A stretch of DNA of 64,000 bases from Chryseobacterium gleum (GTDB lineage: Bacteria; Bacteroidota; Bacteroidia; Flavobacteriales; Weeksellaceae), in contig NZ_LR134289.1 of the NCBI RefSeq assembly GCF_900636535.1, positions 1,426,001 to 1,490,000 on the forward strand, written 5' to 3'. Below are positions 15,487-56,291 of the stretch, piece by piece; position 1 is the first letter of the stretch; the number at the start of each line of letters is the position of its first letter. The translations under genes and the position numbers were made by a program. The notes beneath the pieces are model-generated. The model had not been told where the DNA came from, searched no databases, and saw nothing but the letters and a program-made list of their open reading frames with translations.

Positions 15487-15539
15487 GGTATTGATTGGCT
15501 TTGAAAGGCAGTATTTGGCATTGTATAGTAGGGATTGGT
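15487..15539 (+). promoter_or_regulatory. GGC-decamer array A, upstream of the excisionase-like operon
   Basis: GG dinucleotides fall at 15487, 15497, 15507, 15517 and 15537, exactly 10 bp apart (15527 is AG). Units include GGCTTTGAAA and GGCAGTATTT. It lies upstream of the minus-strand gene starting at 15423, in inverse orientation to it. See arrays B-F. Confidence 0.75.
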
Positions 15540-15541
15540 AT

Positions 15542-15568
15542 AAAAAAGCCCCGAAAAAACCGAGGCTG
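15542..15568 (-). terminator. Terminator of the TonB-CDF metal operon
   Basis: On the minus strand: AGCCTCGG, T-rich loop, CGGGGCT, then six Ts. Placed just after the CDF transporter stop. Confidence 0.7.
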
Positions 15569-15583
15569 TGATTTATTGCGGTT

Positions 15584-16378
15584 CTACTTCGCCAATTTCA
15601 ATATTCTATACGCTCCCCTTGCCACAACCACAAATACAATAGCTCCGATAATCAAATCGGGATAGTTTGAATTAAGCCAATGAACCAAAAAACCTGCAAC
15701 GATAACTCCCGAATTGATTATAACATCGTTTGACGTGAAAATCATCGAAGCCTGCATATGTGCTTCTTTGCTTTTGTTCTTTTGCAACAGGTAAAGACAA
15801 AGTACGTTGGCTATCAATGCCAAAACAGAAACAATAATCATTGTTTTGAAATCGGGCATCGCTTCTATTCCGATAAAACGTCTGATAACTTCAACAAAAC
15901 CGATAACGGCTAACAGGATTTGAAAGTAACCTGCAAATTTGGCGATATTGTTTTTTCTTGCAATCGTACCCCCAACAGCAAACAAAGCCAATGCGTAAAC
16001 GATGCTATCGGCAAGCATATCCAAGCTATCCGCTACCAATCCCATTGAGTTGGAAAAAATACCGAACAACATTTCCAATCCAAAGAAAACGAAATTGATA
16101 ATCAATACCGTCCATAGTAGTTTCCGTTGGCTATTGCTTGTATCTGTTTCAACAACTCCGTTAGTTTCTTCGGTTGAAATCAGCGTTGTATTTAGGTTCA
16201 AGGTTTCCAAAGCTGAAAAAATCGGCTCTGGGTTTCCACTATGGTAAACATTTAGTTTTCTATTGGGAATATCAAATTCCAATGACTTTACCGTATCAAA
16301 GTTTTGCAGTTTCATACGGATTAATTGCTCCTCACTTGGGCAATCCATTTTTGTTATATTAAATATGGTTTTATTCAT
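15584..16378 (-). CDS. Cation diffusion facilitator with N-terminal HMA-like domain
   Basis: 264 aa. Residues 1-75 resemble a heavy-metal-associated domain opening FNITKMDCPSEEQLIR, with one Cys rather than CxxC. Then follow five to six transmembrane helices of the CDF fold, with DSLDMLADS in TM2 (metal-binding Asp pair) and SNDVIINSG in TM5 (one expected His/Asp replaced by Ser/Asn). No long cytosolic tail after TM6. It starts 4 bp after the TonB receptor stop, so metal brought through the receptor and metal moved across the inner membrane are likely linked. Metal identity unresolved. Confidence 0.85.
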   Translation of the reverse strand: MNKTIFNITKMDCPSEEQLIRMKLQNFDTVKSLEFDIPNRKLNVYHSGNPEPIFSALETLNLNTTLISTEETNGVVETDTSNSQRKLLWTVLIINFVFFGLEMLFGIFSNSMGLVADSLDMLADSIVYALALFAVGGTIARKNNIAKFAGYFQILLAVIGFVEVIRRFIGIEAMPDFKTMIIVSVLALIANVLCLYLLQKNKSKEAHMQASMIFTSNDVIINSGVIVAGFLVHWLNSNYPDLIIGAIVFVVVARGAYRILKLAK

Positions 16379-16382
16379 CTTC

Positions 16383-18554
16383 TTAAAGTCTAAATTTTAT
16401 TCCTCCGTTAATTACAAATCCGTCTAATGGTGCATAGATGTCTTTAAAAACAGGGTTGGTTATTGTACCTGTATAAATGTTGTCGAAACGTGTCTGTCTT
16501 GTATCAAAGAAATTTTCAAAGTTGATGTACAAAGAAAACCGTTCCCAAATTTTTTCAGCCATAAAGCCACATATAACATAGTCTTTTCCTGTTGTTCCGT
16601 CATTGAGCTTTTGCGGACTAAAATAATAGGCTTCCAAACCGATTTTCCATTTATCCTCTATTTCATACATAAGTACAGAGTTAATGCGGTGTTTTGGTGT
16701 TAGTGGATTTTCGGTATTTGTTCCGTTTTCAATCAATCGGGTATCGGTAAAAGTGTAGCCCAAAAACAATTTAAAATCATCATAACCGATTTTGATATTT
16801 GTTTCTGTTCCTTTGGTATGAATGTAGCCCGATGAATTGATGAACTGATAAGTATTTGCAGTTATATTTTGAAGCAACAAAGGGTTATCCAAATAGGTGT
16901 AAAAGAATAAATGATTTATGCTAAATGTCCAATCATCGCCAATATTAGTACGGTAATTTATGTCAGCATTTGCTCCGTAGCTCTTTTCTAATTTATTGGT
17001 ATTATCATCAATAGGCATTACGTTTTGATATTGTATGCGTTCGCTTTCTTCGGTAAAAATGGTTGGTGTTTTGTAGCCAAATCCGCCCCCGATACGTGAA
17101 GTCAATCCGTTTGCAATCTTAAACAATGCCGATACTCTTGGCAAAAAAACAGCTCCATAATCTATCACGTAATCTGTTCTTAAACCTGTCTCTAATTGAA
17201 GCCAATCCGTAGCCTTAAAAGAATTTTGAACGAAAGCCCCGAATGTGGTTTGGTTGTAATCTCTCAAAGGAAATGCGGTAATCTGCTTTTCTTTAAAATT
17301 GTCCGTCCAAACATTAACGCCTGTTACCCATTCTGATTTTTCTTTGCTGTGGGTATAGCTTGCTTCCGTAAAAGTGGCTGTTTGTGTTCCCTCAAACTCG
17401 TAATTGGGAATAGCTGTATTGCGGTTAAAATAACTTACGCTGTTCTTTATCTGTACAAAACTGTTTTCGTTTACAGTATGGTCAAAAACAAATTGGGTAG
17501 AATAGCGTTGTGTTTTGTTTTCTTCAAAATATTGGTGTGTGTTATCGCCTTTGCCTTTGATGTAAAGCATATCGCCACCCAAACGGTTTTCAATGGTGGT
17601 GTTAATACCAAAGTTCATTTTTGTTTTATCATTGAAGTAAACAAATAATTTAGGGTTCAGTACATACCTTTCAAATTTAGGAATGGCAGAAAGCCCGATT
17701 TGTGCAGGGTCGTAAGCTCCATTACGATTATGCGAAGCAAATATTGTTGTTCCGATTTTCTTAAACTTCTGTCCGTAAAAACCGTTGATGTCTAAACCTC
17801 TGCCCGATGTTCCGTTTAAATGAAAACGCAAATCCCTTTCTTCCGTTGGTGTCTTGGAAATCAGGTTTACCAAACCTGCTATTGCTCCACCACCGTACAG
17901 CGTAGATGTTGAACCCTTAATAACTTCAACCTGCTTTAAGTCAAGCGGTGGAATTTGCAACAAGCCTAACCCACTTGAAGCACCCGAATAAATAGGAAAA
18001 CCGTCTTTTAAAATTTGCGTATATCGTCCGTCAAGCCCTTGAATACGAATACTTGCGTTGGCACTTGTGGGCGATGTGGTTTGTACGTGAATACCTGTAC
18101 TCTCACTCAAAAGCATACGAATATCCCCTGCTTTCATATTGCCTTTTTCGTCTAACTCCTCACTTCCTATAAACTCAATGCGTGTAGGGATATTTTGTAT
18201 AGTTCTTGTACTTCTTGTTGATGAAATAACAATACCGTCTAACTCCGTTGAACTTTCATAAAGTAAAATCTCAATCGGGGTTGTATCTGCTAACGGAAAA
18301 TTAAAGCTGTCGGTACGTTGGGCAAAACCAATATAACTAAATTGAATTTCCTGTAAACCGTTTGGAATACCTGTTAATATGATTTGTCCGTTTTCATCGG
18401 AAGTTGTTCCGATTGTTGTGCCTGTAATCTGTGCAGTTACACCCATTAAAGGCTCTTTTTTCTCGCTGTCTTTTATTACAGCTTTGAATGTATTTTGTGC
18501 ATATACACAAAGGTTGAGTGCCATAAAAAATGACACAATGAGTATTTTTTTCAT
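16383..18554 (-). CDS. TonB-dependent outer-membrane receptor
   Basis: About 723 aa. Start at 18554 (MKKILIVSFFMALNLCVYAQ) gives a clean signal peptide; the in-frame ATG at 18614 adds a hydrophobic stretch. Domains: carboxypeptidase-regulatory-like domain (about 25-100, GVTAQITGTTIGTTSDENGQ), plug (about 120-240, with SIRIQGLDGRYTQILKDGFPI and LYGGGAIAGLVNLISK), then a 22-strand barrel ending in a terminal aromatic/Arg-Leu strand (GFVINGGIKFRL). Imports a chelated metal or small ligand using TonB energy. The CDF transporter next in the operon suggests a metal substrate. Confidence 0.92.
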   Translation of the reverse strand: MKKILIVSFFMALNLCVYAQNTFKAVIKDSEKKEPLMGVTAQITGTTIGTTSDENGQIILTGIPNGLQEIQFSYIGFAQRTDSFNFPLADTTPIEILLYESSTELDGIVISSTRSTRTIQNIPTRIEFIGSEELDEKGNMKAGDIRMLLSESTGIHVQTTSPTSANASIRIQGLDGRYTQILKDGFPIYSGASSGLGLLQIPPLDLKQVEVIKGSTSTLYGGGAIAGLVNLISKTPTEERDLRFHLNGTSGRGLDINGFYGQKFKKIGTTIFASHNRNGAYDPAQIGLSAIPKFERYVLNPKLFVYFNDKTKMNFGINTTIENRLGGDMLYIKGKGDNTHQYFEENKTQRYSTQFVFDHTVNENSFVQIKNSVSYFNRNTAIPNYEFEGTQTATFTEASYTHSKEKSEWVTGVNVWTDNFKEKQITAFPLRDYNQTTFGAFVQNSFKATDWLQLETGLRTDYVIDYGAVFLPRVSALFKIANGLTSRIGGGFGYKTPTIFTEESERIQYQNVMPIDDNTNKLEKSYGANADINYRTNIGDDWTFSINHLFFYTYLDNPLLLQNITANTYQFINSSGYIHTKGTETNIKIGYDDFKLFLGYTFTDTRLIENGTNTENPLTPKHRINSVLMYEIEDKWKIGLEAYYFSPQKLNDGTTGKDYVICGFMAEKIWERFSLYINFENFFDTRQTRFDNIYTGTITNPVFKDIYAPLDGFVINGGIKFRL

Positions 18555-18640
18555 TGTAAAAATGATACTTAATGTGAATAAATAAATGATAGTGGTGCGA
18601 TACACCACTTGCAATTAGTTTGTGCCGAAAGCACTATACA

Positions 18641-18952
18641 TTAAGCAAGTTGTGGGGGATGCCAAACGGAAAAGGGAAAATCAGAAATAGGTGGTGTTGG
18701 CATTGTGCCTAATTTTCTTTGCGGTTCTTTTACTGAATGTGTGATAGAGAAATGAAAAGTAGTTAAAACAAATCCTGTACAGGTATTACAGCTAAAAAAT
18801 GGCGAACAACATCCCTTATTGCAATCTTGGTCGTCCTGTTCGTTTTGTCCTTGCTCGGTGGTATGTTCCTGCATACATTTATCCTCAATAAAAGTCGGTA
18901 CGGCTGATAACAGCAATACATAGACGGCTAATATTAAAGATATAAATTTCAT
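18641..18952 (-). CDS. Small Cys-rich exported protein (DUF6660-like)
   Basis: 103 aa with an N-terminal signal peptide (MKFISLILAVYVLLLSAVPTF). A metal-binding-like stretch follows: DCNKGCCSPFFSCNTCTGF, with five Cys within about 16 residues, and HTTEQ/HFSITH His residues. It resembles the short Bacteroidetes proteins annotated DUF6660, usually found directly upstream of a TonB receptor as here. Probably periplasmic or membrane-attached metal binding. Name from memory, so moderate certainty. Confidence 0.7.
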   Translation of the reverse strand: MKFISLILAVYVLLLSAVPTFIEDKCMQEHTTEQGQNEQDDQDCNKGCCSPFFSCNTCTGFVLTTFHFSITHSVKEPQRKLGTMPTPPISDFPFSVWHPPQLA

Positions 18953-19026
18953 TCTGCAAAGTTAGATAAAAATTGATTGTGCTGCCTCGCAAACTTTATT
19001 TTGGTTTTTAAAGCTAATAGGCTTAG

Positions 19027-19314
19027 TTATCGTTGTTGTTCCGTTTTTACTTCCTGTTGTTTTTTCTCTCTATCTTTTTTCATTTGCGAATACGACCAAA
19101 TGAAAAGAATACCGATAATAATCAAAGCGTAGGCAATCCACTTGCCAACACGTTCTATAAAACGGATAAATACAGATGCTTCAAAGCTCGAAAAACCCTC
19201 CGCACCTACAGCATTACGTCTGTAAAATTTCCTGCGGCTTATCCAATAGATAAGCCCTATCCCGATAACAAGCGGAATAATACCAAGCACTAATTGAGCA
19301 GTAACCGCATCCAT
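19027..19314 (-). CDS. Small two-TM membrane protein
   Basis: 95 aa. TM1 LVLGIIPLVIGIGLIYWIS (about 8-26), TM2 WIAYALIIIGILFIWSYS (about 60-77), and a charged tail MKKDREKKQQEVKTEQQR. Located between the transfer module and the metal operon, on the same strand as both, followed by no clear terminator. Function unknown; it may belong to the ICE backbone. Confidence 0.65.
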   Translation of the reverse strand: MDAVTAQLVLGIIPLVIGIGLIYWISRRKFYRRNAVGAEGFSSFEASVFIRFIERVGKWIAYALIIIGILFIWSYSQMKKDREKKQQEVKTEQQR

Positions 19315-19376
19315 ATTGATTATAATTATATCAAGTAAAATTAAACAAAAACATCCTATGCCGAAAGTCGAAAAGC

Positions 19377-19404
19377 AAAAAACCGACCTGTAAAGTCGGT
19401 TTTT
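19377..19404. terminator. Bidirectional terminator at the end of the tra operon
   Basis: AAAAACCGAC / GTCGGTTTTT with loop CTGTAAA, just downstream of traQ. Confidence 0.85.
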
Positions 19405-19423
19405 ATCTTCGCTTATGTTGCAC

Positions 19424-19873
19424 TTAATCGCTACTATTAAACTGAAAGCTCAATTGCTTTTCGTTCCCGAAGCTATCCGAAATCCAAACCTCAAAGGACT
19501 GTGATACGGTGGACGTGGAAGTGTAATACAACCTGAATTGTTCAGTTGGTAACGAATACAAATCGTTCGGCAGGTAAGGCGGTTCATCGTAATATCTAAG
19601 TGTTCCCTGTCCGTCAAATTGGAAGTAGCGGAGAAAATATTGCGTATTGCTGTAATTGCCTGTTCGCTGTATGGTAATGCGTATCTCTACGGTCTGCCCA
19701 TTGGCAACCTCTTTAGGCACTGGCATCACGTTGACCTCAAAAGGAAAATCGTTCTGTATTTCGAGTTCATCATCTTTGCTACAAGATACCAACGTAACCG
19801 AAGCTGTGAGGATTGCCAGCAATACATATATCGGCAGTAAACCTATTCTGAATTTATTAAATATTCCTATCAT
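19424..19873 (-). CDS. traQ: Conjugative transfer lipoprotein TraQ (DUF3872)
   Basis: 149 aa, last gene of the tra operon. Signal sequence with lipobox-like LVSC (Cys about 31), then a beta-rich domain (FPFEVNVMPVPKEVANGQTVEIRITIQRT) typical of DUF3872/TraQ. Envelope component of the Bacteroidetes type IV transfer apparatus with unknown precise role. It starts 12 bp after traO ends. Confidence 0.85.
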   Translation of the reverse strand: MIGIFNKFRIGLLPIYVLLAILTASVTLVSCSKDDELEIQNDFPFEVNVMPVPKEVANGQTVEIRITIQRTGNYSNTQYFLRYFQFDGQGTLRYYDEPPYLPNDLYSLPTEQFRLYYTSTSTVSQSFEVWISDSFGNEKQLSFQFNSSD

Positions 19874-19884
19874 TGTTTTACGTT

Positions 19885-20445
19885 TTAAAAATTAAACCTT
19901 AATCCCACACCTACGGACGGACGGAACTGTTCCAAGTCTGTACCCCACAAAATCTTTGTACGTCCTTGTAGGACTAACACAAATCGGTCTGACAGGTAGA
20001 TTTCAAAAGTGAGCCGTCCGCCAGCTCCATAGATGAAGTTGTCCTCACTCAATATTTTCGCTCCGTCATACAACATCGCTTCGCCACGGTTAATGCTTTC
20101 ATAACCGACTACGCCTGTTATTCCGAAGTTCAGCGTAATGTTCTTACGGGCATCGCCTAACAGGAAGAAGCTGTAACCACCCTCTGCGGAATAGGTTTCC
20201 TGCGGTATGCGGAGGTCTTTATACTCGTGGTACTGGTGGGTATATTCCAACGCCCAAAGCTGATAGTTGCCGTTCTTACCGTTTACCGTCATTGCTGCGC
20301 TGATGTAGTAATCATTGCCAATCTTATCATTTGACATTACACCTGCACTTATTTCCAATCCTTTCTGCTTCGGCAGCATCCTTTGCGCCTGTGCAGCCGT
20401 AATGCCTATCAGGACAAGCAGCACGGTATAGATATACTTTTTCAT
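19885..20445 (-). CDS. traO: Conjugative transfer protein TraO
   Basis: 186 aa with signal peptide MKKYIYTVLLVLIGITAAQAQ. The mature part is a small beta-barrel-like protein (KGLEISAGVMSND ... GGRLTFEIYLSDRFVLVLQGRTKILWGTDLEQFRPSVGVGLRFNF) with a terminal Phe. Matches TraO of CTnDOT-family ICEs; outer-membrane part of the mating channel. Follows traN by 27 bp. Confidence 0.87.
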   Translation of the reverse strand: MKKYIYTVLLVLIGITAAQAQRMLPKQKGLEISAGVMSNDKIGNDYYISAAMTVNGKNGNYQLWALEYTHQYHEYKDLRIPQETYSAEGGYSFFLLGDARKNITLNFGITGVVGYESINRGEAMLYDGAKILSEDNFIYGAGGRLTFEIYLSDRFVLVLQGRTKILWGTDLEQFRPSVGVGLRFNF

Positions 20446-28608: not shown

Positions 28609-28914
28609 TTAAAGGAAGAATGAACGCAGGATGGTAGCGGCAACAATCAGGAAGATACACGCACCGAACCACGAAGCTGCAGTCTTACTCGTGTCGGGGT
28701 CGCCGGAACTGAATTTGTTGTACACCTTAACGCCCCCGATTAACCCGACTACCGCACCGATGGCGTAGATTAACTGCGTTGCGGGGTCGAAATAAGAGGT
28801 TACCATTTGGGTAGCCTCGTTGATACCTGCCGAGCCGTTTCCCTGTGCGAACGCACCAATTGCTGACAGCATTGCCAAGGCTGCCAGCCAAACTTTTTTT
28901 CTCTGTTTTTCCAT
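28609..28914 (-). CDS. traE: Conjugative transfer protein TraE (DUF4134, VirB2-like)
   Basis: 101 aa: signal-like N-terminus (KKVWLAALAMLSAIGAFAQG), a short loop, two TM helices (ATQLIYAIGAVVGLIGGVKVYNKF and SWFGACIFLIVAATILRSFFL). DUF4134 is taken as the pilin-like VirB2 equivalent. It is the first gene of the traE-Q operon here, separated from traD by the 5.3-kb plus-strand defence insert. Confidence 0.9.
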   Translation of the reverse strand: MEKQRKKVWLAALAMLSAIGAFAQGNGSAGINEATQMVTSYFDPATQLIYAIGAVVGLIGGVKVYNKFSSGDPDTSKTAASWFGACIFLIVAATILRSFFL

Positions 28915-29006
28915 AATTGAAACACATTAATTTGTTACTGTTTATCCCGCACCTTGCGAGCTTTCGGGACAAATGTCTTGTGGAAAAAGAGGCGTTATGA
29001 GAAAGT

Positions 29007-29046
29007 GGCAGTCAAAGGAAGTGTTTGGCTGTGAGTGGCTTTGCAA
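29007..29046 (+). promoter_or_regulatory. GGC-decamer array E, upstream of traE
   Basis: GG at 29007, 29017, 29027 and 29037, exact 10-bp steps. Units include GGCAGTCAAA and GGAAGTGTTT. It lies 93 bp upstream of the traE ATG and is oriented opposite to it. The rest of the 28915-29257 gap holds the weak hairpin and the controller promoter described next. Confidence 0.7.
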
Positions 29047-29257: not shown

Positions 29258-29584
29258 ATGAAAGAAACATTTGGCGAATATATTCACAAGCTAAGATTAG
29301 ATAATGGTTTAACATTAACTAAACTTGCGGCTGCATTAGACATAGACCAATCTACCTTATCAAAAATTGAAAACGGTAAAAGAAATGTACCTGCTGAAAT
29401 AATACCGAAACTTTCAGCATTTTTCAGTCTTGACTTAAAAAAATTAGAACACGAGTATCTAAGCGAAAGAATTGCAGAATTAATTTATCCGGAGGAGGAA
29501 ACTCAAAAGCTATTTTTAGCTGCTGAGGAGAAAGCAAAATATATGAGAATTAAAAACCAACATCAAAGTACACTCAAGTTTTAA
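29258..29584 (+). CDS. XRE-family controller protein of the R-M system
   Basis: 108 aa. HTH at residues 8-62: YIHKLRLDNGLTLTKLAAALDIDQSTLSKIENGKR. Directly upstream (2 bp) of the cytosine methylase. Size, place and an inverted repeat in its own promoter fit a C protein that delays endonuclease expression when the element enters a new host. The C-terminal 45 residues are helical and of unknown role. Confidence 0.8.
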   Translation: MKETFGEYIHKLRLDNGLTLTKLAAALDIDQSTLSKIENGKRNVPAEIIPKLSAFFSLDLKKLEHEYLSERIAELIYPEEETQKLFLAAEEKAKYMRIKNQHQSTLKF

Positions 29585-29586
29585 TT

Positions 29587-30642
29587 ATGGTAGGAGCATC
29601 ATTATTTTCAAGTGCAGGCATAGCAGAAACTTACTTTGAAGAAGTAGGAATTAATATTATCGCTGCTAACGAATTGGTTCAGGAAAGAGCTGACCTATAT
29701 CAGGCATTGTATCCAAATTCTAAAATGATTGCAGGTAGCATTTTAGACGATAAGATTTTTAAAACACTCGTAGAAAGTACCCCTGAAAAATTAGACTTTC
29801 TAATTGCTTCACCACCTTGTCAAGGAATGAGTGTTGCAGGAAAAAATCGGAATATTGAGCAAATGCTTAAAGATGAAAGGAATTATCTTGTTTTTAAAAT
29901 AATTGATTTCATTAAATTAAAATCTCCCGATTTTGTACTGATAGAAAATGTACCAACATTTTTTAAGATGGTTTTGCCATACCAAAATCAACATTTAAAA
30001 GTAATAGAGATTTTAAATCTATTATTCGGCAAAGAATACAAAATTGAAGCTAATGTGTATGATGCTTCTGAATATGGTGTTGCTCAAAGACGGACAAGAG
30101 CAATCATAAAATTGTACCGAAAAGACAAAAAATGGGGACAACCTATAAAGTCTGAAAAGCAAATAACAGTCGAAGAAAAGATTGGTTTTTTACCAAGTAT
30201 TGAGGCAGGAGAACAGTCAAAAATAAAATGGCATTTTGCCCGAAAACATTCGGATAATCACGTACTGTGGATGAAGCATACCCCAACAGGAAAAACTGCT
30301 TTTGAAAATGAAGAATACTTTCCTATAAAATCTAATGGAGAAAAAATAAAAAGTTACAATACCACATACCGACGAATTAAATGGGATGAACCCGCTCCCA
30401 CCATTACAATGCGAAATGATGCAATCAGTTCACAATTGAATGTGCATCCAGGAAGAAAATTAAAAAACGGAACTTATTCTGATGCAAGAGTTTTAACACC
30501 TTTGGAGTTAATGTTGTTGTCCTCTCTTCCACAAAATTGGAATATCCCGGATAATACACCTGAATTACTTATTAGAAAATGTATTGGAGAATGTATTCCG
30601 CCTTTGTTAATTAAAAATATTGTTGCTCAAATAAATCAATAA
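29587..30642 (+). CDS. DNA cytosine-5 methyltransferase (type II)
   Basis: 351 aa. Motif IV SPPCQG with catalytic Cys78, motif VI ENVP (about 118-121), motif VIII QRRTRA, and the C-terminal motif X-like region LLIRKCIGECIPPLLIKNI. The N-terminal motif I is a variant (LFSSAGIAE). It methylates carbon 5 of cytosine within the recognition site to protect the host. Encoded directly before the nuclease gene (1-bp gap). Confidence 0.9.
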   Translation: MVGASLFSSAGIAETYFEEVGINIIAANELVQERADLYQALYPNSKMIAGSILDDKIFKTLVESTPEKLDFLIASPPCQGMSVAGKNRNIEQMLKDERNYLVFKIIDFIKLKSPDFVLIENVPTFFKMVLPYQNQHLKVIEILNLLFGKEYKIEANVYDASEYGVAQRRTRAIIKLYRKDKKWGQPIKSEKQITVEEKIGFLPSIEAGEQSKIKWHFARKHSDNHVLWMKHTPTGKTAFENEEYFPIKSNGEKIKSYNTTYRRIKWDEPAPTITMRNDAISSQLNVHPGRKLKNGTYSDARVLTPLELMLLSSLPQNWNIPDNTPELLIRKCIGECIPPLLIKNIVAQINQ

Positions 30643-30643
30643 T

Positions 30644-32092: not shown

Positions 32093-32100
32093 AACTTACG

Positions 32101-34573: not shown

Positions 34574-35209
34574 CTATACAAACTCCCCAATGTCAAAATC
34601 ACCCAAATCACTTTTCCGCAAGGTGGAAGAACCGTCGTCGCTTTCAGATGAAAGTGTGCTATCCAAAAGCTCGGCAATTTTTCGGGAAGCACCCTCAATG
34701 GAATTTTCCAGTAAGCTGAATAATTCGGTTCCCTGTAATTTCTGAACTATGGCTACCGCTGTTTCCTTTTGAGCCTGTTCCAAATTCTCTTTTTGGAGCA
34801 ATGCCCCTACGGAGCTTAGTTCGTCGTAGGTAACCCCTTGGGCAAAACCGTTATCGCCACCGGATATTCCGTACCTGTTCCATTCTTCTTCCTCTTCCTC
34901 CAAATCAGGCATATTGCTGAAAACTTTGTCCAGTTCTTCCTGCGGAATTTGAATGCTGACGTTTTCGTTTTCGTCGTATTCAATGTCTAAATTATCAGGG
35001 TTTATCTCCTGTTCCGTTATTTGGCTTTCATTGGCAGTGTTTGGCACTGAAAGGCTTCTTACTGGCTTGGGTTGCCCCATAATATCGGGCAGGTTCGGGT
35101 TAACTTTTTCCTGTTTGGACTTTTGCTCCGACCTTTTATGAATGACAATCTTATCCTGCAAAAGCAGGACAATGACTATCAGCAGGCAAATCACAATTAC
35201 TATTTCCAT
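34574..35209 (-). CDS. traD: TraD-family conjugal transfer protein
   Basis: 211 aa. One N-terminal TM helix (VIVICLLIVIVLLLQ, about 4-18), a polar linker, an acidic stretch (LEEEEEEWNRYG) and a C-terminal helical domain (YDELSSVGALLQKENLEQAQKETAVAIVQKL). Corresponds to proteins annotated TraD between DUF3408 and traE in Bacteroidetes ICEs. Not the F-plasmid TraD coupling ATPase. Here it is cut off from traE by the defence insert. Confidence 0.78.
   Translation of the reverse strand: MEIVIVICLLIVIVLLLQDKIVIHKRSEQKSKQEKVNPNLPDIMGQPKPVRSLSVPNTANESQITEQEINPDNLDIEYDENENVSIQIPQEELDKVFSNMPDLEEEEEEWNRYGISGGDNGFAQGVTYDELSSVGALLQKENLEQAQKETAVAIVQKLQGTELFSLLENSIEGASRKIAELLDSTLSSESDDGSSTLRKSDLGDFDIGEFV
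35023..35062 (+). promoter_or_regulatory. GGC-decamer array F, inside traD
   Basis: GGC at 35023, 35033, 35043 and 35053 in exact 10-bp steps, with the unit GGCAGTGTTT identical to units in arrays B and D. It lies inside the traD coding sequence, in inverse orientation to it. Coding constraint makes chance more likely here, but the full match of units argues for a real site. Confidence 0.5.
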
Positions 35210-35665: not shown

Positions 35666-36433
35666 CTACAATTGAATGATGTTTAAAAATTCGCTGATGA
35701 ACAGGTCTAACTGGCAGGCTTTCATCAAACGCTCATCGGGTGGCATTACCGTAGAACGGAAAACCGTTTTGCTGTCCGCTTCGCTTTCCTTGCGAAAACG
35801 GGTGCTGTTCTTGATTTGGCTTTGCATCAGGCTTAATCCCAATTGCCCGATTAGCTGATTGTACACGTCATATAAGGGTGTGCTTTCCCTGCCGTCCACC
35901 TGGTTCCAGAAAAGATTAATGGTTTCTATAGATGTCTCGCCTTTTTTCATAATCACGTCCTGTAAAAGCTGTGTGAAGATGAGCGTACTTTCCATTACCA
36001 CACGGTCTGCCGTGATGGGCGTGAAAATGTGGTGCATACCTGCCAATGCTTTCAGGATGCCGGGCGTGTTTACAGTTCCGGGCAGGTCGAAGAACAGCAC
36101 ATCAAGCGGAACGGGAGAAGTGTTTACAAATTCGTGCGCCGCATCGAGTACGCTATCCGCTTTGTGCTGCATAATGGGATAGGCTTTTTTGTTGATGGTG
36201 GTAAACTGCTTATAAGCCAGTTTTTTCAAAGCCTCATTTTCCATTACCATTGCCAAATCACGGGTTTTCATTTTCATCAGGCTGTGCTGCGGAAAATCCG
36301 CATCAAATACGGCTACGTTGTAGCCCAACCGATAGTGCATCGTGCTTGCAACAAGCGTGGTAAATGTGCTTTTGCCAACACCGCCTTTTTGAGAAGAAAA
36401 GGCAACGAACAGAGGTTTCTTTTTTGTGTCCAT
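35666..36433 (-). CDS. traA: ParA/MinD-type ATPase (TraA)
   Basis: 255 aa. Deviant Walker A KGGVGKST at residues 15-22, DADFPQ (about 45-50) and Walker B-like VLFFDLPGT (about 113-121). Belongs to the ParA family and to the TraA position of CTnDOT-type elements. May help position or maintain the excised ICE circle. A 330-bp degenerate repeat tract lies directly upstream, a candidate centromere. Confidence 0.9.
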   Translation of the reverse strand: MDTKKKPLFVAFSSQKGGVGKSTFTTLVASTMHYRLGYNVAVFDADFPQHSLMKMKTRDLAMVMENEALKKLAYKQFTTINKKAYPIMQHKADSVLDAAHEFVNTSPVPLDVLFFDLPGTVNTPGILKALAGMHHIFTPITADRVVMESTLIFTQLLQDVIMKKGETSIETINLFWNQVDGRESTPLYDVYNQLIGQLGLSLMQSQIKNSTRFRKESEADSKTVFRSTVMPPDERLMKACQLDLFISEFLNIIQL

Positions 36434-36790: not shown

Positions 36791-36831
36791 GGGGCAAAGA
36801 ACTCATCAAATTCATTCAGTTGTATAGCGGT

Positions 36832-36871
36832 GGCAGTGTTTGGCGTTCAGAGGCAGCATTTGGCACTGTGG
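36832..36871 (+). promoter_or_regulatory. GGC-decamer array B, upstream of the traA operon
   Basis: GGC at 36832, 36842, 36852 and 36862 (a further GGC at 36870 breaks phase). Units include GGCAGTGTTT and GGCAGCATTT. It is in inverse orientation to traA, about 400 bp upstream of its ATG, with the repeat tract between. Confidence 0.72.
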
Positions 36872-38918: not shown

Positions 38919-38969
38919 AAAAAGATTTATTGAGCTGTCACTTTATAATTCTGAAAGAATTTGAGTTGT

Positions 38970-39009: not shown

Positions 39010-39013
39010 TGCT

Positions 39014-39388
39014 ATGGACAATAATTCTTGCATACGACAACAAGCAGACATTAAACAAATAAACCGCTGTAAAGACCGAGTTTCAGAACTCAACGGTTCT
39101 TTTGACTATTTATCGAACGGACTTGAATTAGCGGGAAACAATGTAAGACTGAAAATACTCTTTCTACTTTATGAAGAAAAACGACTTTGTGTTTGTGATA
39201 TAAGTGATATTCTTGGTATGACAATTTCAGCGGTTTCACAACACTTGCGGAAACTCAAAGACAGAAAACTTATTGAAACCGAACGAGAAGCTCAAACTAT
39301 TTTTCACTCACTGACTAAAGAGTATGAAAAAATGCTGAAACCATTTTTCAAAATACTTGACGAAAACAAAATATTAGAAACAATATGA
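39014..39388 (+). CDS. ArsR/SmtB-family metalloregulator
   Basis: 124 aa; start at 39014, just after the -7 box, rather than the upstream in-frame ATG at 38930, which would lie before the promoter. Winged helix with the metal-binding motif LCVCDIS (Cys59, Cys61) in the alpha-3 position, recognition helix TISAVSQHLRKLKDRKLIE, plus N-terminal Cys6 and Cys19 as possible extra ligands. Its stop overlaps the MerTP start (ATGA), so it represses its own operon. Likely senses mercury, or another thiophilic metal. Confidence 0.87.
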   Translation: MDNNSCIRQQADIKQINRCKDRVSELNGSFDYLSNGLELAGNNVRLKILFLLYEEKRLCVCDISDILGMTISAVSQHLRKLKDRKLIETEREAQTIFHSLTKEYEKMLKPFFKILDENKILETI

Positions 39389-39978
39389 AAACTGACAAAA
39401 AATTAATTGGTGCAGGACTTTTGACTACAATTGCAGCTTCTCTTTGTTGCATCACACCAGTATTGGCTCTTATTGCAGGAACAAGCGGTCTTGCTTCCAC
39501 TTTTTCTTGGCTTGAACCTTTTCGACCCTATTTTATCGGGTTGACAATTTTGGTTCTTGGTTTTGCTTGGTATCAAAAGTTGAAACCCAAAAAGCAGATA
39601 GATTGCAATTGTGAGACAGAAGAAAAACCAAAATTCATTCAGTCAAAAATGTTTTTAGGAATTGTAACAGCATTTGCAATCGTAATGCTTGCCTTTCCAT
39701 ACTACTCAAGCATTTTCTACCCAAAGACAGAAAAGCAAATTATAGCGGTGGACAAATCCAATATTCAAAAAGTAGAATTTACGATTAGCGGAATGACTTG
39801 TGCAAGTTGTGGCGAACACGTAAATCACGAAGTAAATAAATTGACAGGAATAATAAGTTCAAACGCCTCATACGAAAAAGGAAACGCAATCGTGGAATTT
39901 GACAACTCAAAAACGAATATTTCTGAGGTCGAAAAAGCAATTAACTCAACAGGATATTCTGTAACCGACAAAAAATAA
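39385..39978 (+). CDS. merTP: MerTP fusion mercuric transporter
   Basis: 197 aa. A MerT-like part has TM helices and the vicinal Cys pair SLCCITP (Cys21-Cys22), plus Cys74/Cys76 in a cytosolic loop (DCNC). The C-terminal HMA (MerP-like) domain has GMTCASC (Cys139, Cys142). Transports Hg(II) across the inner membrane. No merA reductase is found nearby, so detoxification is incomplete here, or the substrate is another metal. Confidence 0.88.
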   Translation: MKTDKKLIGAGLLTTIAASLCCITPVLALIAGTSGLASTFSWLEPFRPYFIGLTILVLGFAWYQKLKPKKQIDCNCETEEKPKFIQSKMFLGIVTAFAIVMLAFPYYSSIFYPKTEKQIIAVDKSNIQKVEFTISGMTCASCGEHVNHEVNKLTGIISSNASYEKGNAIVEFDNSKTNISEVEKAINSTGYSVTDKK

Positions 39979-40285: not shown

Positions 40286-40325
40286 TCACTTCGCCAAACA
40301 CTGCCACGCACCGCCATTGACTGCC
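40286..40325 (-). promoter_or_regulatory. GGC-decamer array D, upstream of mobC
   Basis: On the minus strand GGC ends at 40325, 40315, 40305 and 40295: exact 10-bp steps, with GGCAGTGTTT as one unit. The nearest unit is 64 bp before the mobC ATG and the array is inverse to mobC. It shows that mobC keeps its own promoter although the mercury operon separates it from mobB. Confidence 0.75.
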
Positions 40326-40388
40326 ACATTCTTATAGCCGCTGTGTAGAGCCTTTAAATTCACGCCCGAACATTAAAACTAAAAAAGA

Positions 40389-42389
40389 ATGCAGGGAGAA
40401 GACGATTTAAGAGGTTTAGCCAAAATAATGGCTTTTATGCGGGCAGTCAGTATTCTTTTGGTGCTGATGCACCTTTATTGGTTCTGCTACGGGTTCTTTT
40501 TAGAACGTGGTTGGACGTTGGAAATAATCAACAAGATATTAGGCAATTTCGACCGGACGGCGGGCTTGTTTTCACATACCCTTTATACCAAGGCGTTCGC
40601 TTTGGTTTTGCTTGCTTTGAGTTGTTTGGGAACGAAAGGCGTAAAGAATGAGAAGATAACCTGGGCTAAAATCTACGTGGCTTTGGGCGTTGGTTTTGTG
40701 CTGTTCTTTCTGAACACGCCGTTGTTAAAGCTATCTCCGGTAATAGGCACATTTCTGTATATCCTTACTATCTCGTTAGGTTATATTGCTTTGCTGATGG
40801 CGGGCGTATGGATGAGCCGCTTGCTTCGTACCAACTTAATGGACGATGTTTTCAACAACGAGAACGAGAGCTTTCAACAGGAAACAAAGCTGATGGAAAA
40901 TGAATATTCCGTTAACCTGCCCACCAAATTTTACTACAAAGGCAAATGGAACAACGGTTGGATAAACATTGTAAATCCTTTCAGGGCATCAATCGTGTTG
41001 GGTACTCCGGGTTCCGGTAAATCTTATGCCATCGTAAACAACTACATCAAGCAGCAGATTGAGAAAGGCTTTAGTATGTATATATATGATTTTAAATTTG
41101 ACGACCTTTCCACCATTGCCTACAATCATTTATTGAAGCATCGGGATAAGTACAAAGTTCAACCAAAATTCTATGTGATAAATTTCGATGACCCACGCAA
41201 GAGCCATAGGTGCAATCCACTCAATCCCGATTTTATGACAGACATTTCCGACGCTTACGAAGCGGCTTACACCATAATGCTGAACCTCAACCGTAGCTGG
41301 ATACAGAAGCAAGGGGATTTTTTCGTGGAAAGCCCAATTATCCTATTGGCTGCCATTATTTGGTATCTGAAAATCTATGAGGATGGTAAGTATTGTACAT
41401 TCCCGCACGCCATTGAATTGCTGAATAAAAAGTATTCGGACGTATTTACCATTCTGACCTCATATTCCGATTTGGAAAACTATCTTTCTCCGTTTATGGA
41501 TGCCTGGCAAGGTGGCGCACAAGACCAATTGCAGGGACAGATTGCATCGGCAAAAATCCCTTTGTCAAGAATGATTAGCCCGCAGTTGTATTGGGTTATG
41601 ACTGGCGATGACTTTACGCTCGACATCAATAACCCAAAAGAGCCTAAAATTTTGTGCGTGGGTAATAATCCCGACCGCCAAAATATCTACTCCGCAGCAT
41701 TGGGTTTGTACAATTCCCGTATTGTTAAGCTCATCAACAAAAAAGGGCAATTAAAGAGTTCAGTAATCATAGATGAGCTGCCCACAATTTATTTTAGGGG
41801 ACTGGATAATCTTATCGCAACAGCGAGAAGTAATAAGGTGGCTGTATGTTTGGGCTTTCAAGACTTTTCGCAATTAACGAGGGATTACGGCGACAAAGAA
41901 AGTAAGGTAATACAGAATACCGTCGGCAATATATTCAGTGGTCAGGTGGTTGGAGAAACGGCAAAAAGCCTTTCGGAACGCTTCGGAAAAGTATTGCAGA
42001 AACGCCAGAGTATGACCATTAACCGCAACGATAAATCTACCTCAATTTCCACACAATTAGACAGCCTTATTCCGGCTTCCAAAATTTCAACTTTGACACA
42101 GGGTATGTTCGTAGGTTCTGTATCGGATAACTTTGATGAGCGCATCGAGCAAAAGATTTTCCACGCTGAAATCGTGGTGGATAATGACAAGGTAGCAGCA
42201 GAAACCAAAGCCTATAAGCAAATACCGCAAATCCTTTCTTTCGTAAACGAGCAGGGCGAGGATAAAATGAAACAGCAGATTGAAAGCAACTACCGTCAGA
42301 TAAAACAAGACATTGTACAGATTATCGAAATGGAATTGGAGCGTATCAAAAATGACCCGGATTTGCAACATTTGGTGCAGCAAGAATAA
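40389..42389 (+). CDS. mobC: Type IV coupling protein MobC (VirD4/TraG-like)
   Basis: 666 aa. N-terminal TM helices (about 15-35, 65-80, 95-145; LVLMHLYWFCYGFFLERG), then an ATPase domain: Walker A GTPGSGKSY (about 205-213), Walker B SSVIIDELPT (about 455-464). C-terminal coiled coil (EQGEDKMKQQIESNYRQIKQDIVQIIEMELERI). It brings the relaxase-DNA complex to the TraG channel. MobC of CTnDOT is the same type. Confidence 0.93.
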   Translation: MQGEDDLRGLAKIMAFMRAVSILLVLMHLYWFCYGFFLERGWTLEIINKILGNFDRTAGLFSHTLYTKAFALVLLALSCLGTKGVKNEKITWAKIYVALGVGFVLFFLNTPLLKLSPVIGTFLYILTISLGYIALLMAGVWMSRLLRTNLMDDVFNNENESFQQETKLMENEYSVNLPTKFYYKGKWNNGWINIVNPFRASIVLGTPGSGKSYAIVNNYIKQQIEKGFSMYIYDFKFDDLSTIAYNHLLKHRDKYKVQPKFYVINFDDPRKSHRCNPLNPDFMTDISDAYEAAYTIMLNLNRSWIQKQGDFFVESPIILLAAIIWYLKIYEDGKYCTFPHAIELLNKKYSDVFTILTSYSDLENYLSPFMDAWQGGAQDQLQGQIASAKIPLSRMISPQLYWVMTGDDFTLDINNPKEPKILCVGNNPDRQNIYSAALGLYNSRIVKLINKKGQLKSSVIIDELPTIYFRGLDNLIATARSNKVAVCLGFQDFSQLTRDYGDKESKVIQNTVGNIFSGQVVGETAKSLSERFGKVLQKRQSMTINRNDKSTSISTQLDSLIPASKISTLTQGMFVGSVSDNFDERIEQKIFHAEIVVDNDKVAAETKAYKQIPQILSFVNEQGEDKMKQQIESNYRQIKQDIVQIIEMELERIKNDPDLQHLVQQE

Positions 42390-49472: not shown

Positions 49473-50294
49473 ATGGACAAATTCTATAATGAAATATTAC
49501 ATAAATTAGAAACTGCAATTCAGGAACTGGAGATTGAAACCGACTGCCCGATAAAAAGAATAGAAGCGGTTATAGAGCTTATCATTCAAAGCCTTGCCGA
49601 TTTAAAGGAATTTGTATTGAAGCACGACTTTAAAAATATGGAAGAGGAAATCCATTTTTTCAAGTATCAGAAACCTGTTATTGTTTCAAAGCTCATTTAC
49701 TACAATTCCATCTATAAAATAGAAACGAGAAGACCGTATGGAAACAAGCGCACCAAGAAATATTTTACCAAAGAACTAAAAAAGCTAAAAAGGTTCTTTG
49801 AGAATAACCTTGATTTTTACAAGTATTACCGCAGTAACAATTCTTTCGTTGACGAGAAGTTTTTTGTACGTGGGAAGCACGATATAAGGTTATGGTTGGA
49901 CACTTTTTATTTCGAGGCAGACCACCGCTTTTCTACTTCGCACGATTATAAGGTTGCCAAGATAATTGCCAATGACCTGATACAAGTTTATTTGGAAGAC
50001 AGGCTGAATAACATCAATGTGAAAAAGGGTTCGGACAATTCATTGAAATGGACAGCAAGCAAAACAGCACTTACAGAATTGATTTATGCACTGTACTCCC
50101 ACGGTGTATTTAACAATGGGAATGCAGACATAAAATTGATAGCTAAAACTTTTGAAGATGCCTTCAATATTGAATTAGGCGATTTTTACCACACATTTAT
50201 GGAACTGAAAGCCCGTAAGATAAACCGGACGAAATTCCTTGACAGCCTGTGTGAAGCACTGATAAAGAAAATGGACGAACAGGACGAAAAGTAA
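49473..50294 (+). CDS. rteC: RteC family regulator
   Basis: 273 aa, soluble, helical. Recognised by AIQELEIETDCPIKRIEAVIELIIQSLADLKEFV, RGKHDIRLWLDTFYFEADHRFSTSHDYKVAKIIANDLIQVYLEDRL and LKWTASKTALTELIYALYSHGVFNNG. In CTnDOT, RteC binds upstream of the excision operon and turns on xis2c/xis2d. A similar job at the 15.4-kb excisionase-like operon is expected. No RteA/RteB two-component genes are in the window. Confidence 0.9.
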   Translation: MDKFYNEILHKLETAIQELEIETDCPIKRIEAVIELIIQSLADLKEFVLKHDFKNMEEEIHFFKYQKPVIVSKLIYYNSIYKIETRRPYGNKRTKKYFTKELKKLKRFFENNLDFYKYYRSNNSFVDEKFFVRGKHDIRLWLDTFYFEADHRFSTSHDYKVAKIIANDLIQVYLEDRLNNINVKKGSDNSLKWTASKTALTELIYALYSHGVFNNGNADIKLIAKTFEDAFNIELGDFYHTFMELKARKINRTKFLDSLCEALIKKMDEQDEK

Positions 50295-50301
50295 ACGACC
50301 A

Positions 50302-53300: not shown

Positions 53301-55749
53301 AGCTTTCGGAATAATGAACCAGTACATCCGCATCAAACAGGTGCGAAGCGAAACGGGCATAAATCCCAGTAGGTATCCACCGTTCGCCGAGGTTAAAATC
53401 CAATTCCTCAAAGTCAATACGTTTTGGTCGGGCTTCCTCTAAAGCGTTAAGGCTTTCTTTGGCTTCGGTATCATCGGGATTGTTTTCGAGATAGGCTCTT
53501 ACGTCGTCGGCTTTCTCAACTACGTTACCTGCAATCCAACGTTCAGCTATTTCGTATTCCTGTTGTAGCGGATTGAAGAACAACCGCCCGTGCAGGGCTT
53601 CTTTAAGGGTATCGGTAGGCAGGCTGCTGATTTCGGACATAAAGTCCAAATCCACATTTCCGTATTTGTTCAGCGAGGCGGCTAAAGCCTCTTCGGGATT
53701 GTCGGTTGCTAACGTAGTGGTAGAAAAGCTAACGGGACGGCTGAAAATATCCGCTTTGTGGATTACGCCGCCAATGATACGCTCCAGATAGGGGATTTCT
53801 TTGCCTGCGCTGTCGGTCTTTATCAGCTTGGCATTGTCGGCAGCATTGAGATTACCGTATTTTTTGACAAAGCCATCGTACAGGAGGTTCAGCGTTTCCC
53901 TTTCTTCTTTATGCTCGGTCTGCTTTTCAGCTTCTTTTTGGTACAGGTTGATATAACTGTCCCTTACGGCTATATAGGCTTCGGCTCTTGCTTTCTGTGA
54001 GCTCGGCAATTGCAACGGATGAAAGGTTGCTGTTGCCTTGTCGTCGTTCCTTTGCACATCTTGCAGATAACCAACCCAACCGTTATCTACCACAAGGCAA
54101 TCGTTACGGTGGAGTGATTGCAGTTCGCCAGTGTACGGGGCAGGTTCAGGAATAGCATTAATATTGGTAGTGGCAATGGCTGTCTTATCAGACTGGCCAT
54201 TACCGTTTGTTTGTGAAAACAGGTCGCCAATAGCTTCCTGTTTTTTGTCGTTAACCTGGTTGGTTCCATTAATAGCACCATTGGATTTTAGCGGTGTATA
54301 GGGCTGCTGCCTTACACTGCTGAACAGGTCGGGCTGACGACCTATTGTACCTTTTCTTTTTTTAGTGCTTTGCCTTTTAGTTTGGGTAGTTCTTTTAGGC
54401 GGAGCAAGTACCATTACAGGTTCGCCCGCACTTTCAAACAAGTCAAAAATGCTTAGTTGCTTTAATTCCTGCGGGCTTTCCTGACGGACTACCGGAGTAG
54501 GTACAGGTTGCGGCTTTTGCTGAATGATTACAGGGTCTATGACCGGAGGTGTAACTTTTGGTTCAATAGGAATTTGTATAACAGGCTCGTCGTTCTGTTC
54601 GCCTTTGTATAAACTCAAATTCAGATGCTTTCCAAAATCTTCGGAAAGCATTTGCTTCAAATCTTTGGCAATGCCCTCAACACCGTCTTTATGCGTATAG
54701 ATTAAGGCAGGTTGCCCGTATGGGTCGGTATCTAATTTTTGGTCGGTATGGATAATTCTTGTACTGTCCTGAAAGAGCGCATTGCCAGGCATATTGTATT
54801 CAGATGGCTTGCTTTGGCAAAACAGATCTTCCCTGTCGGTCAGATTTTCTTTTGCCGTATTTTTTTGCAGGATAATCAGGTCGCTGCCGACTTCCGTACC
54901 TGCATATTCGGTAAACAGGTTGTTAGGCAATCTTACAACCGAAACCAAATTATTATCCTGCATCAACGCCCTGCGTATGGGTTCGTTCTTAGGGCTGTTC
55001 AGAATGCCCTGTGAAGTGATGTAAGCCAACAAACCGCCCTCACGGAGCATATCAGCACCTTTCAGAAAAAAGTAATTGTGTATGCTTCGGGCAGCTTGTT
55101 CCTTTGCGCTGTTTCTACTGCGTGAATAAGAAAGGTCAAATACGGAAGTATCGCCAAAAGGGATATTACTGGCGATTACATCATAGGTGTTTTGTTCCCT
55201 TTCGGGGATTTCCTCAAAGCCGTTTATACGGATATTGATTTCGGGGTAAAGCTGCTTTAAAATCTTGCCTGTAAGCAAGTCCTTTTCATAAGCGGTAACA
55301 CTGGCTTTCTGATTTTCCGAAAAGGATTGGATGAATGAACCGATACCTGCGGAGGGTTCGAGGAATTTATCAATGTGCAGACCATTATCCCGCAAGGCAG
55401 ATGAAATGGCATCTATAACTTTTGGTGGGGTATAAAAAGCCGTCAGTACGGAACTTTTCAGACTATCCACATACTTGCGGTATTGCTTATCGTCTTCGGA
55501 ATTTTCTTTGAGTAGTTGGTGGAGTTCCTGCGTGAGTGGAAAAAGGTCGTGTTCTGTTTTTCTCCAATGATTGATGTCTATTTCGTTTTCTACGGGGTTC
55601 AGAACGAATTTAAGACCGCCAAATCCGCTGTATCGCATCATTAGCAGTCTTTCGCCTACGGTGGCTTGCCGTTTCTCCTTTTCCAGTTTAAAAACAATTC
55701 GCAGGGCATCAATATTCTGTTGGAGATGGAACCGCTTACTGAAGCCCAT
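50302..55749 (-). CDS. Giant N6-methylase/SNF2-type helicase protein
   Basis: About 1815 aa; start at ATG 55749 ([18 protein letters not shown]), three codons inside the longest frame; it overlaps the upstream gene by 14 bp. Methylase-like domain: motif [11 protein letters not shown] (about 135-144) and motif IV NIPFGD (about 195), where NPPY would be usual. A Pro/Gln-rich linker follows. SF2 helicase: Walker [12 protein letters not shown] (about 970), DESH (about 1137), SGTTISNS, and motif [13 protein letters not shown] (about 1474). C-terminal coiled coil. Like phage P1 DarB-type proteins seen on ICEs; an antirestriction or DNA-entry role is inferred. Confidence 0.87.
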
Positions 55750-56173
55750 TTTCCTCAATCCATATTGAGATGGTTCCGGTCAGTTCGGTATAGAGTACAT
55801 CAAACTCATTTCCGTTGGCGAAATCATCGGTTAATTCATATCCTGCGAAAACAGGCTCACAAACGGGGAACATTTTAAGGGCGAACGGTCGCAGCTCCTC
55901 GTCTGCCATTATGGCATCAAACTCATTGCATACCACTTTGAAAACCGTGTTGAACTTGGAGAAGTGCAAGCCCTCAAAAAGTATGTAGTTGGCTATTTCG
56001 TCGCATTGCTCAATGGCGTTTCCCGAACGGAAAGCACCCTCATAAGCATTGGCAGCCCACGAAGACCGTTGGTCAATAAATTTTTGGTCGTGCGCCTTTT
56101 CAGGAAAGCTGCTGTTTAATAATTCTTGCAGTCGTAATCTGAAATACGACAGGTCTTTTTGCTGTACATCCAT
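55736..56173 (-). CDS. DUF1896 protein
   Basis: 145 aa soluble protein: [69 protein letters not shown]. Typical of DUF1896, which regularly precedes the large methylase-helicase in Bacteroidetes ICEs. Its stop overlaps the start of that gene by 14 bp. Function unknown; probably a partner of the big protein. Confidence 0.85.
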
Positions 56174-56241
56174 ACTTATTTTGTTTAGAATTTTACTTAA
56201 ATCCTAAAATTATAGCAGTACATAAGCCCCTTTGCAGAAGT

Positions 56242-56291
56242 GGCAGGGTTTGGCTTTGAAAGGCGGGATTTGGCGTAGAATGGTATGATGC
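56242..56291 (+). promoter_or_regulatory. GGC-decamer array C, upstream of the DUF1896-helicase operon
   Basis: GG at 56242, 56252, 56262, 56272 and 56282, exact 10-bp steps over five units. GGCTTTGAAA here is identical to a unit of array A. It begins 69 bp upstream of the DUF1896 ATG, in inverse orientation, inside the divergent region with the HMA-AraC gene. Confidence 0.78.

Follow-up and report, generated by a model that had tools for sequence, protein, structure and literature searches.

Six arrays of four direct repeats, spaced about one helical turn apart, lie at ICE operons in the 64-kb stretch of DNA analyzed here (the window), and a seventh, array G, lies 5.8 kb past it (genome position 1495760). 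These arrays are probably operators of activator type, belonging to a single class of promoters that switches on the transfer regulon of the ICE. The predicted reader is HTHc, an excisionase-type HTH_17 protein encoded just outside the window, which would bind the arrays and activate the promoters. The earlier note had proposed a helically phased operator shared by ICE operons and read by one ICE-encoded master regulator, a proposal that is now well supported.

Structure of the arrays

Every array comprises four units at exact 10-bp steps. The rule in gene orientation is [GCCA N6]x4, followed after 29 nt (28 at F) by a -7 box resembling TAnnTTTG, the type used by the primary sigma factor in Bacteroidetes (Table 1). 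The unit, G(C/A)CA, is sharp. The period scan returned four of four GGC units at period 10 in the window for F (35023), B (36832), D (40325, minus strand), and C (56242); no such array appeared at periods 7-9 or 11-15. A and E are degenerate arrays with one unit GGT or GGA, and their weight-matrix scores were 33.4 (A) and 37.8 (E); no score exceeded 12 when three Markov sequences of 64 kb were scanned.

The five arrays previously described in the window (A, E, B, D, and C) were all real and were located exactly or within a few bases; however, the count was incomplete, as F makes six in the window and G lies beyond it. The recurrence of verbatim units (GGCAGTGTTT in B, D, and F; GGCTTTGAAA in A and C), the orientation of the arrays against their genes, and distances to the ATG within 64-93 bp (A 64, D 64, C 69, E 93) were all reproduced. 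The range of four to six decamers was not, as the number is four. In a set of 122 arrays, GCC occurred at -33, -23, -13, and -3 (99, 108, 97, and 99 arrays, respectively), and it was almost absent at other nearby positions, except in the F coding sequence and its surroundings and at a few D-type spacer positions.

Array classes were set by the nearest homolog, so that E is labelled through the gene after traE and C through the helicase. The 122-array set keeps two odd members of the class "none", own3 1569648 (score 15.4) and G071 51475 (a second C-like array); true G arrays in that class are therefore 9 of 11. The region G017, with three hits scoring 15-21 and no gene match, was left out of the spacing and position counts as probable chance.

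Table 1. Arrays, -7 boxes, and associated genes in the window
Feature	Position	Strand	Sequence or product	Remarks
HTHa	15112..15423	-	HTH_17 protein, 103 aa	Pfam PF12728 E 6.6e-9; predicted target of A
HTHb	14832..15131	-	HTH_17 protein, 99 aa	Pfam PF12728 E 1.7e-12
186-aa ORF	14108..14668	-	receiver-like	third gene after array A; NCBIfam matches weak, below cut-off
Array A	15487..15519	+	GGTATTGATT GGCTTTGAAA GGCAGTATTT GGC	upstream of HTHa ATG, gene on -
-7 box of A	15450..15457	-	TAAATTCG	29 nt from array
TraE	28609..28914	-	DUF4134	predicted target of E
-7 box of E	28970..28977	-	GACATTTG	29 nt from array
Array E	29007..29039	+	GGCAGTCAAA GGAAGTGTTT GGCTGTGAGT GGC	upstream of traE
-7-like box of F	34987..34994	-	TAATTTAG	28 nt from array
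Array F	35023..35055	+	GGCTTTCATT GGCAGTGTTT GGCACTGAAA GGC	inside 5' part of ORF 34574-35209
ParA-like protein	35666..36433	-	TraA position	predicted operon target of B
-7 box of B	36795..36802	-	GTTCTTTG	29 nt from array
Array B	36832..36864	+	GGCAGTGTTT GGCGTTCAGA GGCAGCATTT GGC	mob-tra intergenic, upstream of ParA (traA) operon
Array D	40293..40325	-	GGCAGTCAAT GGCGGTGCGT GGCAGTGTTT GGC	upstream of mobC/TraG
-7 box of D	40355..40362	+	TAAATTCA	29 nt from array
MobC/TraG	40389..42389	+	coupling protein	NF041326 1128 bits, over cut-off; predicted target of D
RteC paralog	49473-50294			38% to RteC
DUF1896 protein	55736..56173	-		predicted target of C
-7 box of C	56205..56212	-	TAATTTTA	29 nt from array
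Array C	56242..56274	+	GGCAGGGTTT GGCTTTGAAA GGCGGGATTT GGC	upstream of DUF1896 gene

Spacing to the promoter box

The search matrix did not include the spacing to the -7 box. A spacing of 29 was nevertheless found in 15 of 16 (A), 12 of 12 (C), and 16 of 18 (D) unique segments, in 21 of 21 E arrays, and in 20 of 20 B arrays, and the offset was 28 in all 20 F arrays. Additionally, nACnTTTG stood at the expected offset in 21/21 E arrays and TTTG at offset 33 in 20/20 B arrays. The G arrays of named genomes number 79: the box is at 29 in 72 of them, at 19 in six, which is a shift by one unit of register, and missing in one. The earlier note did not contain this fixed spacing.

According to PMC7366714, TAnnTTTG at -7 is the consensus of sigma-ABfr promoters in Bacteroidetes. 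Nearly all arrays have a box of this kind. With the transcription start placed from the -7 box, the arrays would lie at roughly -43 to -76. An RNA element or leader was rejected because the -7 box comes after the array in gene orientation, and vegetative iterons are disfavoured because the arrays of seven operons are each tied to a promoter box.

Occurrence and conservation

The exact GGCx4 pattern gave 11 matches in the 5.6-Mb genome, against none for the backward-read control, and all were confined to three ICEs or clusters (758.8-792.6 kb, the window, and 1571-1592 kb). Equal density in host intergenic DNA, which the earlier note had raised as a point against its proposal, was not found in this genome-wide comparison, which used the exact pattern only. 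Conservation at the same operons was found in about 20 related ICE regions, with array positions and distances to genes preserved. Several ICE regions end short of one or both ICE ends, so a missing A, C, or G there is no proof of absence.

Among 147 genomes (own included), 28 carried the exact pattern, with 75 matches versus 9 for the backward control; several of the 75 seem to be chance matches within coding sequence or fall outside the ICE operons that are known. A stricter pattern searched across the phylum matched in 5 of 296 genomes. Chance repeats were rejected by the period scan, the genome-wide backward control, the Markov sequences, and the reversed control at HTHc loci. A coding-repeat origin of F was rejected, as the 10-bp step passes through all three frames.

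HTHc as the candidate reader

HTHc is the third HTH_17 protein (102 aa; Pfam PF12728, E 1.9e-9) and is encoded at the ICE right end between RteC and DUF3945/topB, which is the position of Xis2d in CTnDOT. Its structure model contains a helix (residues 5-33) and a winged helix (39-91) of the HTH_17/MerR-like type, without the MerR coiled-coil effector part. BldC was the top match by Foldseek and profile search and is the nearest solved relative (23-24% identity in the Foldseek alignment); a PDB search with HTHc alone gave nothing useful.

The distribution of these genes across genomes points to HTHc, and not the HTH_17 pair of the window, as the likely reader. HTHc is the sole HTH_17 protein common to array-bearing ICEs with examined ends, apart from two decayed-looking exceptions, G051 and G024, which carry arrays without a close HTHc and lower our confidence in this reading. 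Array G was found just 3' of HTHc in 79 of 80 named HTHc loci (one match in the reversed control), and at the remaining locus the contig stops 31 bp past the gene. Of the 147 relatives, 15 have an HTHc of at least 184 bits, and 14 of these carry the exact pattern; the remaining one, G036, has array G in degenerate form (matrix score 18.8). The exact pattern also occurs in 7 of the 32 genomes whose HTHc matches are all weaker and in 7 of the 100 that lack HTHc at E 1e-20, several of these last being chance-like. The winged-helix core is near-invariant among array-bearing ICEs, and residues 37-88 are identical across the three array-bearing ICEs of this chromosome. In G148, a single contig of 3.93 Mb, six operons carry arrays (E, F, B, D, C, and G) and HTHc stands at 91-92%, whereas HTHa, HTHb, and HTHd had no match in the 135 kb examined and its whole genome showed no HTHa apart from a cross-match to HTHc.

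Alternative explanations

The earlier note had offered RteC, an Xis-like protein, and a receiver-like protein as readers; the Xis-like option is favoured, in the form of HTHc, and the others, like the HTH pair of the window, are less favoured. That HTHa/HTHb read the arrays, with autoregulation through array A, is unlikely. Array A lies 63-64 bp upstream of HTHa in all 16 ICE regions where this array was mapped, HTHa is 79-90% conserved in such regions, its AF2 model has the long helix and winged helix of HTHc, and GGACA arrays (see below) also stand upstream of HTHa/b pairs in other elements. However, G148 retains its arrays without the pair, G036 has array G without HTHa, and the GGACA regions G366_C19 and G550_C1 lack both genes locally, such genes being present elsewhere in their genomes. 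HTHa is a possible co-regulator besides being the predicted target of array A. Direct binding by an RteC-family protein, either the right-end RteC or the window paralog, appears very improbable. RteC adjoins HTHc in most array-bearing ICEs whose right end was obtained, and it controls CTnDOT excision and transfer (PMC1976400); homologs of the paralog occur in 17 regions (median 80%). Nevertheless, RteC falls to 64-66% identity in own1, G025, and G148, where HTHc is kept at 87-92% and the array letters are unchanged, and the paralog ranges from 35 to 100%. RteC binds inverted half-sites, which also counts against its reading decamer arrays. The receiver-like ORF is poorly conserved (30-70%), and no match to it was obtained in G042, where all seven arrays are present.

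A repressor role, in which HTH_17 proteins on the arrays would keep the transfer genes off until induction, is improbable as well. BldC on direct repeats represses whiI (PMC5859096), but the arrays stop 28-29 nt short of the -7 box and leave it uncovered, and the CTnDOT excisionases act positively. The arrays of G024 and G051, with no close HTHc, and the indirect assignment of HTHc would suit a host-encoded reader; still, we regard this as highly improbable, as the exact pattern is confined, within this genome, to ICE clusters and array letters vary between ICE lineages, which suits an ICE-borne reader.

Proposed mechanism and implications

In the mechanism proposed for HTHc, the RteC layer would switch on the HTHd-HTHc operon, and each HTHc protomer would occupy a single decamer, the protomers lining up head to tail along one helix face, as in BldC. 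Bound HTHc would introduce a bend into the DNA and either attract RNA polymerase or position it at the promoters of tra (E, B, and F), mobC (D), DUF1896-helicase (C), DUF3945-topB (G), and the second HTH_17 pair (A). Since D and E adjoin cargo insertions in the window, array promoters may hold operons under common control where cargo separates them from upstream genes.

Some Bacteroidales ICEs show the same grammar with other letters (GGACA x4) at homologous operons. The GGACA search matched in 10 of 198 genomes: four (G366, G550, G522, and G764) have an ICE or mobilizable-element context by inspection, and the remaining six are tandem repeats or unexplained. The P. massiliensis record L362 has an HTHc relative and no G(C/A)CA x4 array in 36 kb. 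We suggest, tentatively, a phylum-wide Bacteroidota ICE code in which an Xis2d-type excisionase-family reader would recognize a set of four G(C/A)CA decamers, in phase with one another and at a constant distance from the -7 box. The GCCA (Flavobacteriia/Sphingobacteriia-type) and GGACA (Bacteroidales-type) letters would co-switch with the recognition helix, and mobilizable elements with an array before their own excisionase pair may answer the resident ICE.

The operator rule would allow prediction of transfer-regulon operons in sequenced Bacteroidota ICEs, and it names HTHc as a candidate reader. Because this chromosome has three array-bearing ICEs with common operator letters and with an HTHc winged helix that does not differ between them over residues 37-88, activation of one may activate all. 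The arrays of mobilizable elements bear on a 2007 statement (PMC1976400) that the excision gene of NBU1 that CTnDOT regulators induce had not been identified.

Comparison with known systems

No publication describing these arrays was found in a literature search that was thin on subscription and CTnDOT promoter papers. The earlier view that no operator of this type has been described needs softening, as BldC and RdfS of ICEMlSym R7A use about 9-10 bp of DNA per protomer. Like HTHc, both contain a winged helix of the HTH_17/MerR-like type and lack the effector part of classical MerR proteins, and BldC binds direct repeats head to tail, as predicted for HTHc. However, BldC sites are AATT-type with a variable repeat number and RdfS sites are described without a consensus, whereas the arrays described here consist of four copies of a sharply defined G(C/A)CA unit with a fixed promoter spacing. 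Sigma-ABfr promoters share the -7-like box, which here is preceded by a four-unit array at 28-29 nt. The classical MerR operator is a palindrome in the spacer between two promoter boxes; the arrays are direct repeats 28-29 nt upstream of the -7 box.

The right-end order RteC - two HTH_17 - DUF3945 - topB matches that of CTnDOT, rteC-xis2c-xis2d-orf3-exc, whose excision proteins (Xis2c/Xis2d/Exc) are already known to activate transfer genes. Xis2d is said, in the title of Hopp 2015, to bind the mob-tra intergenic region of CTnDOT. Array B, a direct-repeat array, likewise lies in the mob-tra intergenic region. The Xis2d site of CTnDOT is described as a dyad; the present operators are four direct decamers at seven operons with a fixed -7 spacing.

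Detection and validation of the decamer arrays

The decamer arrays claimed in the earlier note were found in the window sequence, and their 10-bp phasing held, with four of four GGC at period 10 and none at periods 7-9 or 11-15. Across the whole genome, the exact GGCx4 pattern resulted in 11 matches in three clusters, and the reversed pattern in 0. The six window arrays received weight-matrix scores of 33 to 46; three 64-kb Markov sequences scored with the same matrix gave nothing above 12. Conservation at the operons of related ICEs was also borne out: positions A, E, F, B, D, C and G (the last 5.8 kb beyond the window) recurred in about 20 regions, not every position in each, partly because the regions were cut.

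Array structure and the -7 box

We aligned 122 arrays from 22 ICE regions in gene orientation (A 16, E 21, F 20, B 20, D 21, C 13, other 11). GCC occurred at -33 in 99, at -23 in 108, at -13 in 97 and at -3 in 99 of them, so an array comprises four units rather than the four to six proposed earlier. Classes A, E, D, C and "other" supplied the 82 arrays pooled for the information profile. Values of 1-2 bits predominated at the GCC(A) positions, and the upstream flank carried 0.04-0.61 bit per position. Besides a second conserved block, spanning +29 to +36, there was conservation at a small number of spacer and downstream positions (+1, +3, +10 and +43).

Judged by its sequence, the second block is the Bacteroidetes -7 box, for which TAnnTTTG is the consensus given in PMC7366714. 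It reads TAAATTCG in class A, TAAATTCA in D, TAATTTTA in C, TACTTTCG or TACATTCG in G, nACnTTTG in E and nTnnTTTG in B. The array-to-box spacing, which is absent from the search matrix, was 29 in 15/16 (A), 16/18 (D) and 12/12 (C) unique segments and in all 21 E and all 20 B arrays; it was 28 in 20/20 F arrays.

Array F and the -7 box of array B overlap called genes. Array F and a -7-like box lie inside coding sequence, within the coding start, and may form an internal promoter upstream of traE. The Bacteroides ovatus ICE likewise has an F-type array, within the gene immediately preceding the DUF4134 gene. The B box falls in the first codons of a called ORF, whose true start is therefore probably further downstream.

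Gene content around the arrays

The window, part of one 5.61-Mb contig (positions 1426001-1490000), holds most of a Bacteroidetes ICE, with an integrase, the HTH_17 pair, the tra operon, ParA, MobC_2 and a relaxase, MobC/TraG and DUF1896. Cargo blocks are interposed among the conserved ICE operons and adjoin the array promoters. Homologs of the window RteC-family gene occurred in 17 other regions. The same chromosome (G000:C1) carries five MobC loci, near 764, 1467, 1576, 4822 and 5265 kb, and three of the five have array letters in common.

Coordinates of features in the window and in fetched records
Feature	Sequence	Coordinates	Remark
HEPN/RES protein, GIY-YIG-like protein, AbiH	window	11375-14111	adjacent; GIY-YIG-like slightly below its cut-off; possible defence patch
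Cation efflux, TonB receptor	window	15584-18614	cargo
DNA methylases, Cro/C1-type HTH	window	29258-33483	cargo
ORF containing array F	window	34574-35209
Array F	window	35023-35055
ORF overlapped by B box	window	36468-36815
B -7 box	window	36795-36802
MerT, ArsR-type HTH	window	38930-39978	cargo
Second RteC-family gene	window	49473-50294	~38% identity to right-end RteC
Region holding immunity genes	B. ovatus ICE region (L361, NZ_CP081918.1)	5526-20279	several annotated; adjoin RteC-domain gene and HTH genes
Stretch with GCC/GGC array	G051 contig C19 (L363)	2858-2990	29 nt before TACATTGG; ~0.55 kb from HTHa/HTHb-like pair
GGACA array upstream of HTHa/HTHb pair	G522_C68 element region (L316)	7448-17717
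GGACA array upstream of HTHa/HTHb pair	G366_C25 (L315)
GGACA array upstream of HTHa/HTHb pair	G764_C21 (L345)

Arrays in related ICEs and apparent mobilizable elements

Array G was directly 3' of HTHc, the right-end HTH_17 protein, in 79 of 80 named HTHc loci; at the remaining locus the contig stops 31 bp past the gene. These loci, chosen by HTHc similarity and hence related ICEs, come from Flavobacterium, Zunongwangia, Kaistella, Pedobacter, Sphingobacterium, Niabella, Algoriphagus, a Dysgonomonas MAG and others. The CTnDOT-like regions G522_C123 and G550_C1b had a degenerate array B and no array G. The array on G051 contig C19, in a different gene setting, is a possible further target beyond the seven operons.

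Two Bacteroidales-type ICE regions, G366_C19 and G550_C1, had GGACA as the unit, repeated four times at 10-bp steps at B and F, and in G550_C1 also at G; counted by hand, the -7-like box follows at 27-28 nt. GGACAx4 had 0 matches in 470 kb of reversed sequence. GGACA arrays were also present in B. ovatus BFG-107 (NZ_CP081918.1), both between mob and tra and at F, and G366_C3 mixed GCC and GAC units. The GGACA arrays before HTHa/HTHb pairs on three contigs had a TATATTTG box at 29 nt where counted. G522_C68 looks mobilizable because it encodes integrases, MobC/NikA and a relaxase, and none of ten proteins scanned matched a T4SS family; it appears as if this and the other two apparent mobilizable elements, G366_C25 and G764_C21, share the ICE operator.

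Candidate reader of the arrays

In most array-bearing ICEs the left end encodes HTHa/HTHb and the right end, between RteC and DUF3945/topB, encodes HTHd/HTHc, making four HTH_17 proteins. We cross-counted 147 genomes, and exact GGCx4 was found in 14 of the 15 with HTHc of at least 184 bits, in 7 of the 32 with only weaker HTHc and in 7 of the 100 without HTHc at E 1e-20. In G036, the 15th strong-HTHc genome, array G is degenerate (18.8) and HTHa is lacking. On its single contig, G148 combines HTHc at 91-92% with arrays at E, F, B, D, C and G; it has no HTHa, and its other HTH_17 match is stop-broken or weak. HTHc diverges at loci with degenerate arrays or none (G089 73-76%, G058 62%, own4 67%, own5 59%); own4 and own5, two of the five MobC loci, have HTHc relatives without arrays, the array scan giving no score above 12. 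RteC is more variable than HTHc among ICEs sharing array letters. Two cases run counter to HTHc. In G051, which has strong arrays, HTHc is at 69% and sits on a different contig, and HTHa is broken; G024 has a single D array and lacks a close HTHc as well as a close HTHa. Each may be a decayed or split ICE.

Xis2d of CTnDOT binds a dyad. Operator function, reading by HTHc and a cooperative activator filament are three separate steps and were graded apart. The arrays are almost certainly operators, HTHc is their likely reader, and a cooperative activator filament is plausible.
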